Of a stretch of 51,430 bases of DNA, positions 39,683 to 51,430 are shown piece after piece. The DNA is from Holdemanella biformis DSM 3989 (lineage in GTDB: Bacteria > Bacillota_I > Bacilli_A > Erysipelotrichales > Erysipelotrichaceae). The DNA is taken from positions 125,785 to 177,214 of the forward strand of contig NZ_DS996842.1 in assembly GCF_000156655.1 (NCBI RefSeq), read 5' to 3'. The position numbers and the translations under genes are program-made. The notes below the pieces were generated by a model. It was not told where the DNA came from. It was given only the letters and a program-made list of their open reading frames with translations, and did not search any database. How positions within the stretch are numbered: the stretch's first letter is position 1; every line of letters starts with the position of its first letter.

Positions 39683-40332
39683 GTTTAACGTTGGATTATT
39701 TTATTCATGAAGATTTAAAGTTATATCAAGATAGTGAACATTTTCGCTTTAATACGGATACGAAATTATTGGCGCAGTTTGTTCGTTTAAAAAAACAAGA
39801 ACGTATTCTCGATATTGGTACAAACAATGGTGCTTTGTTGGTGTACTTTGATCAGTTTCATATAAAAGAGCTAGTGGGTGTTGAAGTATTAGAAGAAACG
39901 AGTAAAGTAGCTCAAAAGAATGCGGATTGTTTTATTAAGCATCCAGTAAAAATTGTAAATCAACCAATTCAAGAATATGTAGATGATTTATTTGATGTCG
40001 TTGTTAGCAATCCTCCTTATTTTAAAATGAATGCCAATCAAAAGCCGGAACATTTAAATTTTCGTCATTTGGGAAGAATGGAAGAAAATTTAACATTAGA
40101 ACAATTGGTATTTCATGCGAATCGTTTATTGAAAAGTTATGGCCGTTTTTATATGGTGCATCGTCCCAATCGTTTAAATGAGATCAATAAAGTTCTATAT
40201 GACAATAACTTTAGTATTCGTAATTTGAGGTTTGCGTATGATCATCGTGATCATAAGGTAAAATCTGTATTGATTGAGGCAATCAAAGAGTCGAATTGCG
40301 ATATGAATGTATTAGAACCTATATATATTTAA
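39679..40332 (+). CDS. tRNA1(Val) adenine-37 N6-methyltransferase-like protein
   Basis: This 217-residue class I SAM-dependent methyltransferase resembles the TrmN6/YfiC group, which methylates N6 of A37 in tRNA1(Val). Key parts are the family start FRFNTDTKLLAQFV, the SAM motif ILDIGTNNGALLVYF and the N6-adenine methylase motif SNPPYF. It begins with TTG at 39679, overlapping the dinB stop by 4 bases (TTGA), with GGAGGGG 7 bases ahead. In many Firmicutes the homologue sits next to a GIY-YIG nuclease and rsmI, which are not seen here. Confidence 0.82.
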   Translation: MSLTLDYFIHEDLKLYQDSEHFRFNTDTKLLAQFVRLKKQERILDIGTNNGALLVYFDQFHIKELVGVEVLEETSKVAQKNADCFIKHPVKIVNQPIQEYVDDLFDVVVSNPPYFKMNANQKPEHLNFRHLGRMEENLTLEQLVFHANRLLKSYGRFYMVHRPNRLNEINKVLYDNNFSIRNLRFAYDHRDHKVKSVLIEAIKESNCDMNVLEPIYI

Positions 40333-40337
40333 TTTTG

Positions 40338-40346
40338 TGTTATAAT
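40338..40346 (+). promoter_or_regulatory. Extended -10 promoter directly before the xer gene
   Basis: TGTTATAAT ends only 6 bases before the ATG at 40353. The expected transcription start therefore falls on the start codon, suggesting a leaderless mRNA. Confidence 0.55.
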
Positions 40347-40352
40347 AGTTTT

Positions 40353-41255
40353 ATGGAATTAAAAGATGCATTCGAGGATTATCATTTATATTTGAGTGTT
40401 GTGCAACGGAAATCAAAGAAAACTGTACAATCGTATCTACATGATATCGATGTTTACTTAGATTTTTTAAAGGATCGAAAGATTTCTAAGTGTGAAAATA
40501 TTTCTGTTTTAGATATTGAGGCGTTTTTGGATTTTTATGCCGAGGATCATGTTGCGTCAAGTCTGAATCGCATGATTGCGAGTATTCATTCTTTTCATTT
40601 GCAGATATCAACTATGCATCCTGAAATCAAAGATGTATCTTTATTAATTCATGGGATGAAATCATCTAAGCATCTGCCTGTTTATTTAAGTGTGGATGAA
40701 GTAAAAAAAGTTTTTTCATCTTTTCAAGACAATGAGATCGACCAATATAATAAAACAATCTTAGTTGTATTATATTCTTGTGGTTTGCGTGTTAGTGAGC
40801 TTTGTGATTTAAAGCTAAATGATGTGCATTTGACAGAGCAAATCTTAAAAGTCAAAGGCAAAGGAGATAAGGAAAGAATCATTCCGATATCTTCTTATTG
40901 TGTTTCACAGATGAAATATTATTTAGATTCCATTCGCTTCGTTTGGGATGTAAAGAATGTTTCGTATTTTTTTGTGAATCGGTTAGGCCATATTTGTACA
41001 AGGCAATATGTTCACTTGATGATTAAACAAAAAGTGAATGAATTAAATTTAAATCCAAAAATATCTGCACATAGTTTCAGGCATTCGTTTGCGACGCATT
41101 TATTAGATGGAGATGCCGATTTAAGAATTGTTCAAGAGCTTTTAGGGCATTCCAATATTTCTACAACGCAAATCTATACGCATATTCAAGATAAGCGTTT
41201 ATCGAGTGTTTATGATCGTTGTTTTCAAAAAATAGAAAAATCAAAGGAGGAATAG
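40353..41255 (+). CDS. xerD: Tyrosine recombinase, XerC/XerD type
   Basis: This 300-residue recombinase resolves chromosome dimers at a dif-like site. All catalytic residues are visible: Arg in SCGLRVSELCDL, Lys in GKGDKERIIPI, His and Arg in SAHSFRHSFATHL, His in LLGHSNISTTQIYTH, and the nucleophile Tyr in the same motif. The N-terminal SAM-like DNA-binding domain (residues 1-95) is present. The frame is open from 40296, but ATG 40353 fits the family start MELKDAFEDYHLYLS and follows a -10 by 6 bases with no ribosome site. It could equally be called XerC; the housekeeping role is inferred from the context. Confidence 0.88.
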   Translation: MELKDAFEDYHLYLSVVQRKSKKTVQSYLHDIDVYLDFLKDRKISKCENISVLDIEAFLDFYAEDHVASSLNRMIASIHSFHLQISTMHPEIKDVSLLIHGMKSSKHLPVYLSVDEVKKVFSSFQDNEIDQYNKTILVVLYSCGLRVSELCDLKLNDVHLTEQILKVKGKGDKERIIPISSYCVSQMKYYLDSIRFVWDVKNVSYFFVNRLGHICTRQYVHLMIKQKVNELNLNPKISAHSFRHSFATHLLDGDADLRIVQELLGHSNISTTQIYTHIQDKRLSSVYDRCFQKIEKSKEE

Positions 41256-44282: not shown

Positions 44283-45599
44283 ATGAAAACATTATCTATA
44301 TTATCTACAAAACTAAGTGCCTGGGGACTTCATCTTATTGGAAGAGGTGGATCTATGCCTGGATCTATTGGTTGCAAGGTGGATAAGAATATATTAACGA
44401 AATTAAAATTTAATGGACCTGTCATTTTAGTTACGGGTACCAATGGTAAAACGAGTACCGCAAATATGATTACGGACTTATTTCAAAATGCAGGATACAA
44501 TGTTATTTCGAATCGTAAAGGAGATAACTTAAAGGCGGGTATTGTGACTACATTACTTACAAATTGTAAGTTAAATGGTGAAATCAAAGCCAATGCGGTT
44601 GTATTAGAGTGTGATGAATTAAATGTAAGACACATTCTTCCTTTTATTCCGGTTACAGATTTTGTGGTCAACAACTTCTTTCGTGATCAATTAGATCGTG
44701 CGCGTGAAATGGAACAGTTGATTGATTCGATTGAAAAGGTTTTGCCAGATTATAAGGGGCGTTTGATTCTAAATGCGAATGATCCAAATGTTGTGCGTTT
44801 AAATTTAGTTGCTAAAAATGCGACTTGTTCTTATTTTGGAATGGATGAGAATAAGTATTCTGTTACAACCACAAAAGAGGCAAGTGAAGGGAAATTTTGT
44901 CCAAAGTGTGGGGCAAGGCTTGAATATAGTTATTATCAATATTCGCATATTGGTAAATTCCATTGTTCAAAATGTGATTTTAAAACACCAGAAATGGATG
45001 TTTGTCTAAAGAATATTGATTTGGATCAAGAAACATTTACGAGTGATAAAGTCAGCTTTAAATCTCCTTATGAAGGAATGTATTCGATGTATAATTGTGC
45101 GGTTGTATTAAATATTGCGAAAAATTATGGTATTTCTGTGGATTGTGTAAAATCTGTATTTAGTCATGCGCCTCAGCCTGCAGGAAGAAATGAAACGTTT
45201 AAGTCAAATGATCAAACATGTATTTTAAACTTAGTTAAAAATCCAACGGGTGCAAATGAGGTCATGAAGGTCATTGAAAAAGATGATTCAAATAAAACAA
45301 TCGTAATTGTATTAAATGATCGTGAACAAGATGGTACAGATGTAAGCTGGATTTATGACACTTTCTTTGAAAAAATCATGAAGGATAGCACAAAAGAAAT
45401 TATTTGTACGGGTCTGCGTGCAAATGATATGGCTTTAAGAATCTATTATGGTGGTTATAAAGGACCTTTAAGTGTGGTAGATACTTTAGATATTGCCATT
45501 AAAGCAGCTTTAGCTACAAAGCGTACTACTTATGCGATCGCAACGTATACGGCATTGCTTCCTACTCGTAATGCGATTAAAAAGGAGATGGGTCTATGA
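44283..45599 (+). CDS. murT: Lipid II isoglutaminyl synthase, MurT subunit
   Basis: MurT and GatD amidate the alpha-carboxyl of D-glutamate in lipid II to D-isoglutamine. MurT is a Mur-ligase-like protein; the P-loop TGTNGKTST lies at residues 51-59. The protein has 438 residues, with a zinc ribbon (Cys206, Cys209, Cys228, Cys231 in CPKCG and CSKC) typical of MurT and absent from other Mur ligases. AAGGAG precedes the ATG. gatD starts 4 bases before the murT stop. The pair strongly suggests amidated peptidoglycan stem peptides in this organism. Confidence 0.94.
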   Translation: MKTLSILSTKLSAWGLHLIGRGGSMPGSIGCKVDKNILTKLKFNGPVILVTGTNGKTSTANMITDLFQNAGYNVISNRKGDNLKAGIVTTLLTNCKLNGEIKANAVVLECDELNVRHILPFIPVTDFVVNNFFRDQLDRAREMEQLIDSIEKVLPDYKGRLILNANDPNVVRLNLVAKNATCSYFGMDENKYSVTTTKEASEGKFCPKCGARLEYSYYQYSHIGKFHCSKCDFKTPEMDVCLKNIDLDQETFTSDKVSFKSPYEGMYSMYNCAVVLNIAKNYGISVDCVKSVFSHAPQPAGRNETFKSNDQTCILNLVKNPTGANEVMKVIEKDDSNKTIVIVLNDREQDGTDVSWIYDTFFEKIMKDSTKEIICTGLRANDMALRIYYGGYKGPLSVVDTLDIAIKAALATKRTTYAIATYTALLPTRNAIKKEMGL

Positions 45600-46327
45600 A
45601 AGTAGTTTGGATGTATCATGATATCATGGATCTTTATGGTGATAAGGGAAATATGATGGTTCTAAAGAAGCGTTGTTTAGATCGTGGTATTCCTTTTGAA
45701 TTGGATACTTGTGGTATTGGTGAAGAAAAAGATTTAAGTGAATATGATTTAATATTTTTAGGTGGTGGTGCAGATAAGGAACAAATTAGTTTGATTCCTG
45801 ATTTACTGTCGCGTAAAGAAAATATTAAAAAGGCAATGGATGAGAAGACGTTTGTTCTTTTAATTTGTGGTGGATATCAATTGTTTGGTCAATATTATAT
45901 TGCGGCGAATAATGAAAAAATTTCTGGCTTGCAGTTCTATGATTATTATACGGATACGGGTAAAGCTGGTAGTCGTTGTATTGGAAATGTTGTGATTGAT
46001 GCCGATTTGGATGGTTTAAAAACGCGTATTGTTGGTTTTGAAAATCATGGTGGTCAAACATTAAATGTAACACATCCTTTAGGTAAGGTGATTAAGGGGT
46101 ATGGTAATAGTTTTGGTGCAGGTTATGAAGGTTTCTATGATGGAAAGATTTTAGGAACCTATTTACATGGTCCATTACTTCCTAAAAATCCTGAGGTTGC
46201 GGATTTTGTGATTTCAAAAGCAATACAAAAAAGAAATCCAGATTTTAAATATAGTGATTTAAAACCACTAGAAGATAAATTTGAAACAATGGCTCGTGAG
46301 GCTGTGTTTAAAAAATTAGAAATATAA
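45596..46327 (+). CDS. gatD: Lipid II isoglutaminyl synthase, GatD glutaminase subunit
   Basis: GatD is a CobB/CobQ-like class I glutamine amidotransferase that releases ammonia from glutamine for MurT. The catalytic Cys91 is in LLICGGYQLFGQ and His191 in LGTYLHGPLLPKNP. GGGADKEQ near residue 57 is typical. The 243-residue length is normal. The start overlaps the murT stop (ATGA), ensuring balanced synthesis. The hairpin beyond its stop has its U tract on the other strand, so it lacks a clear terminator of its own. Confidence 0.93.
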   Translation: MKVVWMYHDIMDLYGDKGNMMVLKKRCLDRGIPFELDTCGIGEEKDLSEYDLIFLGGGADKEQISLIPDLLSRKENIKKAMDEKTFVLLICGGYQLFGQYYIAANNEKISGLQFYDYYTDTGKAGSRCIGNVVIDADLDGLKTRIVGFENHGGQTLNVTHPLGKVIKGYGNSFGAGYEGFYDGKILGTYLHGPLLPKNPEVADFVISKAIQKRNPDFKYSDLKPLEDKFETMAREAVFKKLEI

Positions 46328-49462: not shown

Positions 49463-49662
49463 GACTCTGTGATTTGTCGTGAAATCAAAAAAGATGAACA
49501 ACTATACGTCTCAATTCAAATTAGAGAATGTGTATTTATAATATAAATCTAGATATTGTACTTAATCATAAACTAAGAATCTTGATTTACACGAATTTGA
49601 ATTAAAGAATACCTAATACGAAGCATCAATCCTTGCATTGAATCCGTCAAATATCAATATTA

Positions 49663-49709
49663 AGCAGATTTATTCGATTTCTATCGAATTTCTGCTCTAT
49701 TTTTAATTT
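49663..49709 (+). terminator. Hairpin terminator in the gene-free region
   Basis: AGCAGA (49663-49668) with TCTGCT (49691-49696), and ATTCGAT (49672-49678) with ATCGAAT (49683-49689), form a bulged stem followed by a T-rich tail. It may end the transcript from the small membrane protein gene. Confidence 0.55.
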
Positions 49710-49790
49710 TATAAATATTACATAAGATAGATTATGCGAAGTTCTTGCTCTTTTTAAGAAGCCTATTCATTTGCTTTTTGAAACAGAGAA

Positions 49791-49873
49791 ACTAAGCATC
49801 ACCTAAGTAAAACTAAGCATCACTTATAAGAAACTTTCGTGTTTTTACTTAACTAAACTAAGCATCACCTAAG
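49791..49873 (+). repeat. Interspersed ACTAAGCATCACCTAAG repeats
   Basis: A 17-base unit occurs identically at 49791-49807 and 49857-49873. A shorter copy (ACTAAGCATCAC plus TTATAAG) begins at 49812. Starts are 21 and 45 bases apart, about two and four turns of the helix, as expected for sites bound in phase by a transposase. Confidence 0.7.
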
Positions 49874-49993
49874 ATAATGTTTTGTCTTTTATAAGTATAT
49901 TAATCTTCTTAATAAGTATATCTTATATAATTAGACTTAGGTTAATTTATTTTACTTGACATAGTTTGTATTATATAAGTTTGTATAGTATTA

Positions 49994-50090
49994 GTTCTTA
50001 TAGAAAATCAATACAGTTCTATGCAATCAAACTAAAAGGTTCTTATAGAAAAGTGTTGTGTATTCCCTATGTCAAAGTAAAAGGTTCTTA
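49994..50090 (+). repeat. GTTCTTAT repeats with exact 45-base period
   Basis: GTTCTTAT occurs at 49994, 50039 and 50084, exactly 45 bases apart. The first two continue with AGAAAA, and the last two are preceded by AAGTAAAAG or AACTAAAAG. The sequences between are unrelated, so this is not simple tandem duplication. Confidence 0.65.
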
Positions 50091-50104
50091 TGCCTTGGTG
50101 AGCA

Positions 50105-50137
50105 TAAAAAAACAAAGAAACACAGAGTCTCTTTGTT
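50105..50137 (-). terminator. Terminator of the TnsC-like gene
   Basis: AACAAAGA (50111-50118) pairs with TCTTTGTT (50130-50137), with a U run following on the minus strand. It overlaps the stop codon. Confidence 0.7.
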
Positions 50138-51430
50138 AGTTATCATCTGTAATGTAATCACAGATGTTCTTCGATGCAGGAGTTCTTCTTGTAGCCTTTC
50201 TCTTTGGCTTTACAGGCTCCTCATTTAGAATGGCGATCACCTGTTTAGCTACTTCATGTGGCTTCAGGCGATGATTGACATCTTCTTCTAAAACCATTCG
50301 AGTTGCTCTGCCGATTGAGTCAGAGTCAAACTCTACATAGATTTCACGGACCAAGTCGATGACCTTTGTCATCATCTTGCTCTCATAAACCATGTTGCTG
50401 ATGTTGGATTCAGGCATTTGATATTTGTTCTTCTCTTCCTCAGCAATCGTAAGAATACGTTCATCTTCAAGTTCTTCAGTTCTTGCCTGATTAACAATGT
50501 CGATAGCACCTTTCAACTGTTTGAAATGCTTGTTGTTAACACGCACAATGAACTTCTTGTCGATGGTCTCAATCTTCCCTTTGGACTTACTGTCAATGTA
50601 TTCCAGCATGATCCATTTGTACAACCAAATCAGCATGTTAATGATACCACCTGAGCACTCATACAAAGTGTCTGAAAGTTCCTTAGACCATTGAATCGGT
50701 GTATCCAGCCATTGCCAAGTCAAAAGCATATTCACCAGCATGTTGAAATAATCCTTGTCAGTCGTATATGCGGAAGCGTCAATGAAGTCACCTGCTCTAC
50801 GTGCATTTCTAAGCATTGTAAACAGCTTCTTGTAGGCTTCATCTGTTCCAACTACACTCAAGGCTACCTTTGTCTTGTTGACGATACCTAACAGACCTTC
50901 ATAGCTGTTTTCTCTATTGGTGTTGAAGTCGATAAGCTGGATTTCGTCCATCACAATAGTTCCAATCGAGAACATTTCGATAAGCTGGCAGACTTTTAAT
51001 TGCTTGTCTGCAAGGCTTTTGCACTTCTTGTTAATCATGACTTCATAGATAGGTTCGGGATTTCCTAAAGCATTATCAATGGCTTCTCCAATCTGTCTAT
51101 ACAAGGTTGAAAAGTTGCTGTTTGGCATACAACTTACGACCAGATATGTAATCTGTGGAATCGAAGTTCCAGGATCTGGATGGTGCATGATTACTTGTGG
51201 GATGTTATCGAACAACTGCTTCAATGAAGATGATTTGCCGCATCCTGAATAGCCTAGCAAGGCAAACCCAGATGGAGCACTATCTTCGATTTTACCCTTC
51301 ATTTTGATGAGTTTCTTGTCAGTTGACTCGCCAATAGCATTTGTGTCCCAGACATAGGATTTGCGAAGCATATAGGAGCTAACGATTACATCATAGTTGA
51401 TGAATTCCAAACTGCTTTTGGAACGATAAA
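50136..51430 (-). CDS. tnsC: TnsC/TniB-like AAA+ ATPase of a transposon, N-terminus cut by window edge
   Basis: This AAA+ ATPase resembles TnsC of Tn7-like and TniB of Tn5053-like elements, the regulator that links target selection to the TnsA/B-type transposase. Walker A is GYSGCGKS and the segment PQVIMHHPDPGTSIPQITYL is typical of TnsC. Walker B is TIVMDEIQ, with VVGTDEAYKKL and RNARRAGDF following. The C-terminal tail is basic (KPKRKATRR). At least 424 residues are visible. A TTG at 51410 could start it, but no ribosome site is seen and the frame stays open to the window edge (…YRSKSSLEF), so the real start probably lies outside. The transposase and any TniQ/TnsD gene would be upstream, off the window. 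Confidence 0.75.
   Translation of the reverse strand, partial: YRSKSSLEFINYDVIVSSYMLRKSYVWDTNAIGESTDKKLIKMKGKIEDSAPSGFALLGYSGCGKSSSLKQLFDNIPQVIMHHPDPGTSIPQITYLVVSCMPNSNFSTLYRQIGEAIDNALGNPEPIYEVMINKKCKSLADKQLKVCQLIEMFSIGTIVMDEIQLIDFNTNRENSYEGLLGIVNKTKVALSVVGTDEAYKKLFTMLRNARRAGDFIDASAYTTDKDYFNMLVNMLLTWQWLDTPIQWSKELSDTLYECSGGIINMLIWLYKWIMLEYIDSKSKGKIETIDKKFIVRVNNKHFKQLKGAIDIVNQARTEELEDERILTIAEEEKNKYQMPESNISNMVYESKMMTKVIDLVREIYVEFDSDSIGRATRMVLEEDVNHRLKPHEVAKQVIAILNEEPVKPKRKATRRTPASKNICDYITDDN

Follow-up and report, generated by a model that had tools for sequence, protein, structure and literature searches.

Analysis of a 51,430-nucleotide stretch of the Holdemanella biformis DSM 3989 genome (hereafter the window) indicates that one end of a Tn7-like transposon lies beside dif, the XerC/XerD chromosome dimer resolution site, and that related elements of two further genera end at the same distance from dif. 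To judge from the sequences compared, the Tn7-like elements of this group very probably use dif as an attachment site. Concerning how the site would be found, we lean slightly towards one whole explanation, namely a cut-and-paste Tn7-like transposon inserted at dif whose TniQ protein senses the dif bound by the host Xer proteins; TniQ as the reader, the Xer proteins as the handle and cut-and-paste transposition are the parts of it that we infer.

The dif site and the spacing of the element ends

The dif site is bound by XerC and XerD, and it is here alone that joined copies of the chromosome are separated before cell division. In the window this 28-bp site occupies positions 49715..49742 on the minus strand (ACTTCGCATAATCTATCTTATGTAAT), to the left of the element tip and outside the element, and it is of the Firmicutes type with an 11-6-11 layout, the XerC half lying at 49732-49742 and the XerD half at 49715-49725. 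Of 98 relatives, 74 have the dif pattern, almost all of them in a single copy (two genomes have 2 copies), and the pattern matched once in the own genome of the window (C38:175502-175526). A reversed control pattern matched in two genomes only, and the dif pattern had no match in the shuffled window. Over the whole contig the GC skew is mostly positive before dif and mostly negative after it, with the cumulative skew peaking at dif, which is a switch as at the replication terminus.

A host gene for a XerC/XerD-type tyrosine recombinase is located 8.5 kb from dif (40296..41255, plus strand). Its product scored 268.7 bits with the XerD model TIGR02225 and 253.7 bits with the XerC model TIGR02224, and since both scores are under the equivalog cut-offs the gene was assigned as XerC/XerD-type only; we propose it as the host partner or its paralogue. 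The murT-gatD genes (44283..46327, plus strand) form a dif-side neighbourhood common to Absicoccus and to another genome (G107), in which dif lies in the same neighbourhood with no insertion. The gatD gene was considered as the attachment gene and rejected, since the genes from gatD to the element are not shared and the common feature is dif. In a genome of the same genus (G174, L059:11035-11329) the contig ends shortly past the start of the patatin gene of the window, so that the assembly of the closest relative lacks the dif region.

The spacing was measured from the 28-bp dif for four element ends in three genomes, which belong to three genera. The tip of the window element lies 36 bp from dif on the XerC side, the spacer (49743..49778, no strand assigned) being 35 bp when one extra T is discounted, and the tip of the Absicoccus porci element lies at 35 bp, also on the XerC side. 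In the third genome (G011) an intact element to the right of dif has its tip at 36 bp on the XerD side, and a remnant to the left has its tip at 36 bp on the XerC side. The spacers themselves are not conserved and appear unrelated, as pairs agree at 4-14 of 35-36 positions. The dif site is single in each of these three genomes, the only ones in which such dif-adjacent elements were found, and no dif-like site was found in the loci of the other Tn7-like elements that we found, among them a second element of the window genome and two further elements of G011. The TnsB and TnsC trees are compatible with one or two origins of dif targeting.

The element, its genes and its remnants

The predicted left end of the element extends over 49779..50135 on the plus strand, with the tip TGAAACAGAG followed inward by TnsB-type sites at 49789, 49810, 49855, 50029 and 50074 and a weak copy near 49984. 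The first three sites share the 14-mer AAACTAAGCATCAC, spaced by 21 and 45, for which 0.04 occurrences were expected and no shuffle gave three. A second set, of the AAACTAAAAGGTTCTTAT type, comprises the sites at 50029 and 50074 (45-bp spacing) and, 45 bp upstream of them, the weaker copy GTTCTTATAG. The preliminary description of the window had reported a gene-free region with two sets of phased repeats beside the 3' end of an ATPase gene; there are no genes between 49463 and 50135, the stretch that holds both sets, and the repeats were confirmed as TnsB-type site arrays. The same description had the element end starting at 49463, which did not hold, as the tip is near 49779 and 49463-49778 is host DNA including dif. 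A site model trained only on the neighbouring remnant ends, which lie right of the window element, and scanned across the 373-kb contig gave 8-15 bits for the held-out left-end sites of the window. Tn7-like transposons have TGT...ACA termini and a 5-bp target duplication. The left terminus in the window is TGA, not the TGT of the related ends at the locus, and the candidate right terminus is ACA. A scan of the region against Rfam gave no match.

The gene beside the left end is the 3' portion of tnsC, a target-communication ATPase of the AAA+ class (50136..51430, minus strand), whose reading frame (50136-51428) is open at the window edge. The window ends at an assembly N-gap within tnsC and not at a natural end, and the gene continues past the gap to L002:7743 (L002 positions become extended window coordinates when 44215 is added). 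The sequences flanking the gap overlap, TTCCAA(A)CTGCTTTTGGAACGATAAA, so the gap is probably an assembly artefact. In Pfam the product matched AAA_22 (1.1e-11) and, above the cut-off, TniB (8.7e-6), and among solved structures the Tn7 TnsC 8glu (E=1.7e-12), in agreement with the minus-strand TnsC-type AAA+ ATPase described initially and not with a non-transposon AAA+ family. The gene order is tniQ-tnsA-tnsB-tnsC, reading toward the left end. Transposase genes had been predicted to the right of the window, and tnsB was indeed found within 3 kb of its edge (L002:7755-9914, minus strand, 719 aa; 7pik TnsB, E=5.7e-36), with the acidic residues D296, D379 and E415 invariant in 7 relatives. It is followed on the same strand by tnsA, which is interrupted by a second N-gap and matched PF08722 (1.3e-14) in the part before that gap, and then by tniQ (minus strand, 305 aa; PF06527, 4.9e-9). 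The presence of TnsA makes the element Tn7-type and not Tn5053-type, so that only the first half of its initial designation as Tn7/Tn5053-like stands; the dif target had not been picked up at that stage. Likewise, the suggested targeting module beyond the edge was recovered as tniQ and not as a CRISPR system, as no CRISPR-like array was detected between 49000 and 68500 and no Cas effector matched among the element proteins scanned. CRISPR-guided targeting (CAST) was rejected, as this stretch gave no array and the scanned proteins no cas gene.

Divergent from tniQ is ORF400 (L002:11944-13146), in which a zinc ribbon of the ISL3 type was matched weakly (PF14690, E=1e-4), at a level under the curated cut-off. 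Past it are a small HTH gene, a DUF3784-like gene and genes for a YcxB protein, a lipoprotein, a candidate defence protein and a PARCEL-repeat surface protein. The candidate defence cargo (L002:16275-17036) matches the candidate anti-phage family PDC-S61 (PADLOC, 251 bits), and near its C-terminus it weakly matches an RT-associated PD-DEXK model. The closest relative of the window element is that of Absicoccus porci, with identities of 60% for TnsB, 53% for TnsC, 72% for part of TnsA and 32% for TniQ.

The site-model scan also picked up further arrays at the locus, left-end ones as well as two of the right-end type, with few strong matches elsewhere on the contig. Behind the intact genes there are remnant left-end tips (TGTTTTCAT) at 58192, 64127 and 64904, together with tnsC tails close to 58662, 64396 and 65873; of the right-end arrays, one spans 63893-64109, in inverted orientation, and the other 67593-67700 (all in extended window coordinates). 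The additional tips and tnsC tails indicate several partial copies behind the intact genes, and such stacked remnants would be expected if the site were targeted repeatedly. In G011 a tnsC tail was found on the opposite side of dif, and a truncated tnsC, 98% identical to the first, lies 14 kb beyond it; the distance in the window is likewise about 14 kb. One small stretch, TTACTTTGC.TCTGGATATGTGTCTTCAAATTTATCAGC, is found twice beside tnsC tails in remnant copies (L002:14180-14320 and L003:1390-1530) and is probably a small gene carried by old elements.

A matching inverted end had been anticipated, and inverted TnsB-site arrays do lie further to the right. Pairing the left end of the window with the array at 63893-64109 gives a 14.3-kb element, a pairing that is uncertain because of the internal left end at 58192. 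An empty site and a target duplication had also been suggested for comparison. The empty dif is that of G107, and the candidate 5-bp target duplication is GCTTT, read directly at 49773..49777 on the plus strand, with one extra T before the predicted left tip, and repeated at 64120-64124 (extended window coordinates) directly after the ACA terminus of the right-end array. The right end of the Absicoccus porci element was sought and not found.

The window genome also carries a second, distant Tn7-like element on contig C35 (L031:6761-9790), which encodes a 564-aa TnsD. The C-terminus of this TnsD has repeats of about 40 aa (MNCGLEAEIIRYG..DIDVRFEDG), and a neighbouring 406-aa ORF is made up of little else than these repeats, which may be a modular target-binding array. 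At C40:87859-88296 (L001 / L004) a TniB-family match, which seems to have no relation to either of the Tn7-like elements, falls within an open frame of 859 aa.

TniQ and the choice of target

The TniQ proteins of the dif-adjacent elements are the three shortest that we found (305 aa in the window, 288 and 348 aa in the others), the remaining elements having TniQ proteins of 384-799 aa. A short TniQ has been proposed as a hallmark of elements that use a separate target selector (Faure et al., PMC10293859). What the three dif-adjacent elements have in common is TniQ and dif, and since binding of dif by Xer is established, sensing of Xer-bound dif by TniQ is the simplest reading. Ends at equal distances to either side of the quasi-symmetric dif would fit either an Xer-dif complex or a near-palindromic DNA motif. 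A structure model of TniQ built from three sequences (pLDDT 45) was not good enough to search for similar folds.

According to the mechanism that we propose, the short, core-only TniQ would recognise dif while the host XerC and XerD occupy it and would then recruit TnsC, which would position the TnsA-TnsB transpososome one footprint away. Insertion about 36 bp from dif would leave dif intact, and new copies would enter between dif and the previous copy, so that older copies would be pushed outward and decay. Whether this holds for a whole clade that itself encodes no DNA-reading target protein, with host XerC/XerD at dif acting as the selector through the core-only TniQ, we regard as evenly balanced.

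Some explanations do without a dedicated use of dif. Terminus regions gather mobile DNA and the region downstream of murT-gatD is variable, so an ordinary Tn7-like element in a terminus hotspot might lie near dif through a general insertion bias. This is very improbable, and we strongly disfavour it, given that four ends in three genera lie 35-36 bp from dif, to one side or the other and across unrelated spacers, and that the other Tn7-like elements of the same genomes are not at dif. Entry by XerCD recombination at dif, in the style of IMEX phages, would account for an element that adjoins dif. Its probability is negligible, as there is one copy of dif and no duplication, which together with the 36-bp spacing refutes it, and the element has a full tns operon and is bounded by TnsB arrays that stand 36 bp off dif.

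The other explanations accept dif as the target and differ in what recognises it. TniQ may read the dif DNA directly, as TnsD reads glmS, with no need of host Xer. This draws on the same evidence of dif targeting as the explanation that we favour, it follows the classical Tn7 route of direct binding by TnsD, and each element has one TniQ and the dif sequence is conserved. However, TniQ proteins of 288-348 aa do not have the long C-terminal DNA-binding extension of TnsD, and the spacing is equal on both sides of dif, a point that is not decisive with a nearly palindromic site; on balance we consider direct reading unlikely, though the most serious of the competitors. It is less probable still that the selector is the gene divergent from tniQ, ORF400 in the window and a gene for a 257-aa protein in Absicoccus. 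Both adjoin a short TniQ gene, and the zinc ribbon of ORF400 and weak HTH matches in the 257-aa protein count in favour of this, but the two proteins share no similarity, a search of about 1,000 genomes gave no convincing homologue of ORF400, and the likeness of ORF400 to ISL3 is limited to the zinc ribbon. Moreover, the third element has no comparable gene beside tniQ and yet shows the same dif spacing.

The Absicoccus porci gene in the place of ORF400 lies at L027:18244-19017, and the C-terminal HTH of its product is weakly transposase-like. ORF400 itself was considered as a catalytically dead ISL3 transposase, as its body aligns by eye, and this was rejected because profile tests, compared with shuffles and unrelated proteins, supported the zinc ribbon only. 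Its structure model had a pLDDT of 38. A match of ORF400 in G104 turned out to be due to chance, the gene concerned being repetitive and surface-protein-like. ORF400 had no match in plasmid and phage records, and neither ORF400 nor TnsB had a match in viral contigs.

Relation to known elements and implications

The known attachment sites of Tn7-like elements are genes (glmS, comM, yhiN, parE and tRNA genes) or plasmid resolution sites. Like Tn7 of Escherichia coli, the window element has TnsA, TnsB, TnsC and a TniQ-family protein, several TnsB-type sites per end and an insertion point at a constant distance from a site that is conserved in the chromosome. It differs in its site (dif versus glmS), in having a short TniQ in place of the longer TnsD, in that no TnsE was found and in that its tnsC end faces the attachment site. 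The IS1202 family (the ISAjo2 group, 'dif site hunters') has a TnsB-like/Tn7-like transposase and targets dif and pdif, and its authors suggested a contact with dif-bound XerC (PMC10132070). Members of this family are single-gene insertion sequences of about 1.5 kb, without TnsA, TnsC and TniQ, that insert in a single orientation, 5 bp away from the XerC site, whereas the window element is a multi-gene element with the full Tn7 set, about 36 bp away, and within its group either side of dif is used. The Tn5053/Tn402 family is cited in PMC11406308 as hunting resolvase-bound res sites. The family resembles the window element in having a TnsC/TniB ATPase and TniQ and, under the explanation that we favour, in taking a recombinase-bound resolution site as cue. 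Its sites are res sites of serine resolvases on plasmids, and it has a resolvase, TniR, and is not known to have TnsA; the window element has TnsA and lies at chromosomal dif, a tyrosine-recombinase site. Tn6022 combines a short TniQ with TnsF, which has an inactivated Xer-like tyrosine recombinase domain, and targets comM (PMC10293859). Its selector is encoded by the element, whereas the selector proposed for the window element is host Xer.

No mention of dif was found in three open reviews or surveys of Tn7-like elements. In the open literature covered, the role of dif as an attachment site of Tn7-like transposons appears unreported, and has been reported for the related single-gene insertion sequence. 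The dif site, a chromosomal recombinase site present about once per chromosome in this order, would offer a universal non-coding landing place, and what recruits a short TniQ becomes directly testable. If Xer is the cue, this would explain the site specificity of a TniQ that has no DNA-binding extension, and Tn7, Tn5053 and IS1202 would share a principle, with transposases seeking recombinase-bound DNA. If the explanation is true, these elements would be, to our knowledge, the first Tn7-like group that borrows a housekeeping recombinase of the host for chromosomal targeting, and their transposition would be tied to the terminus and to cell division.
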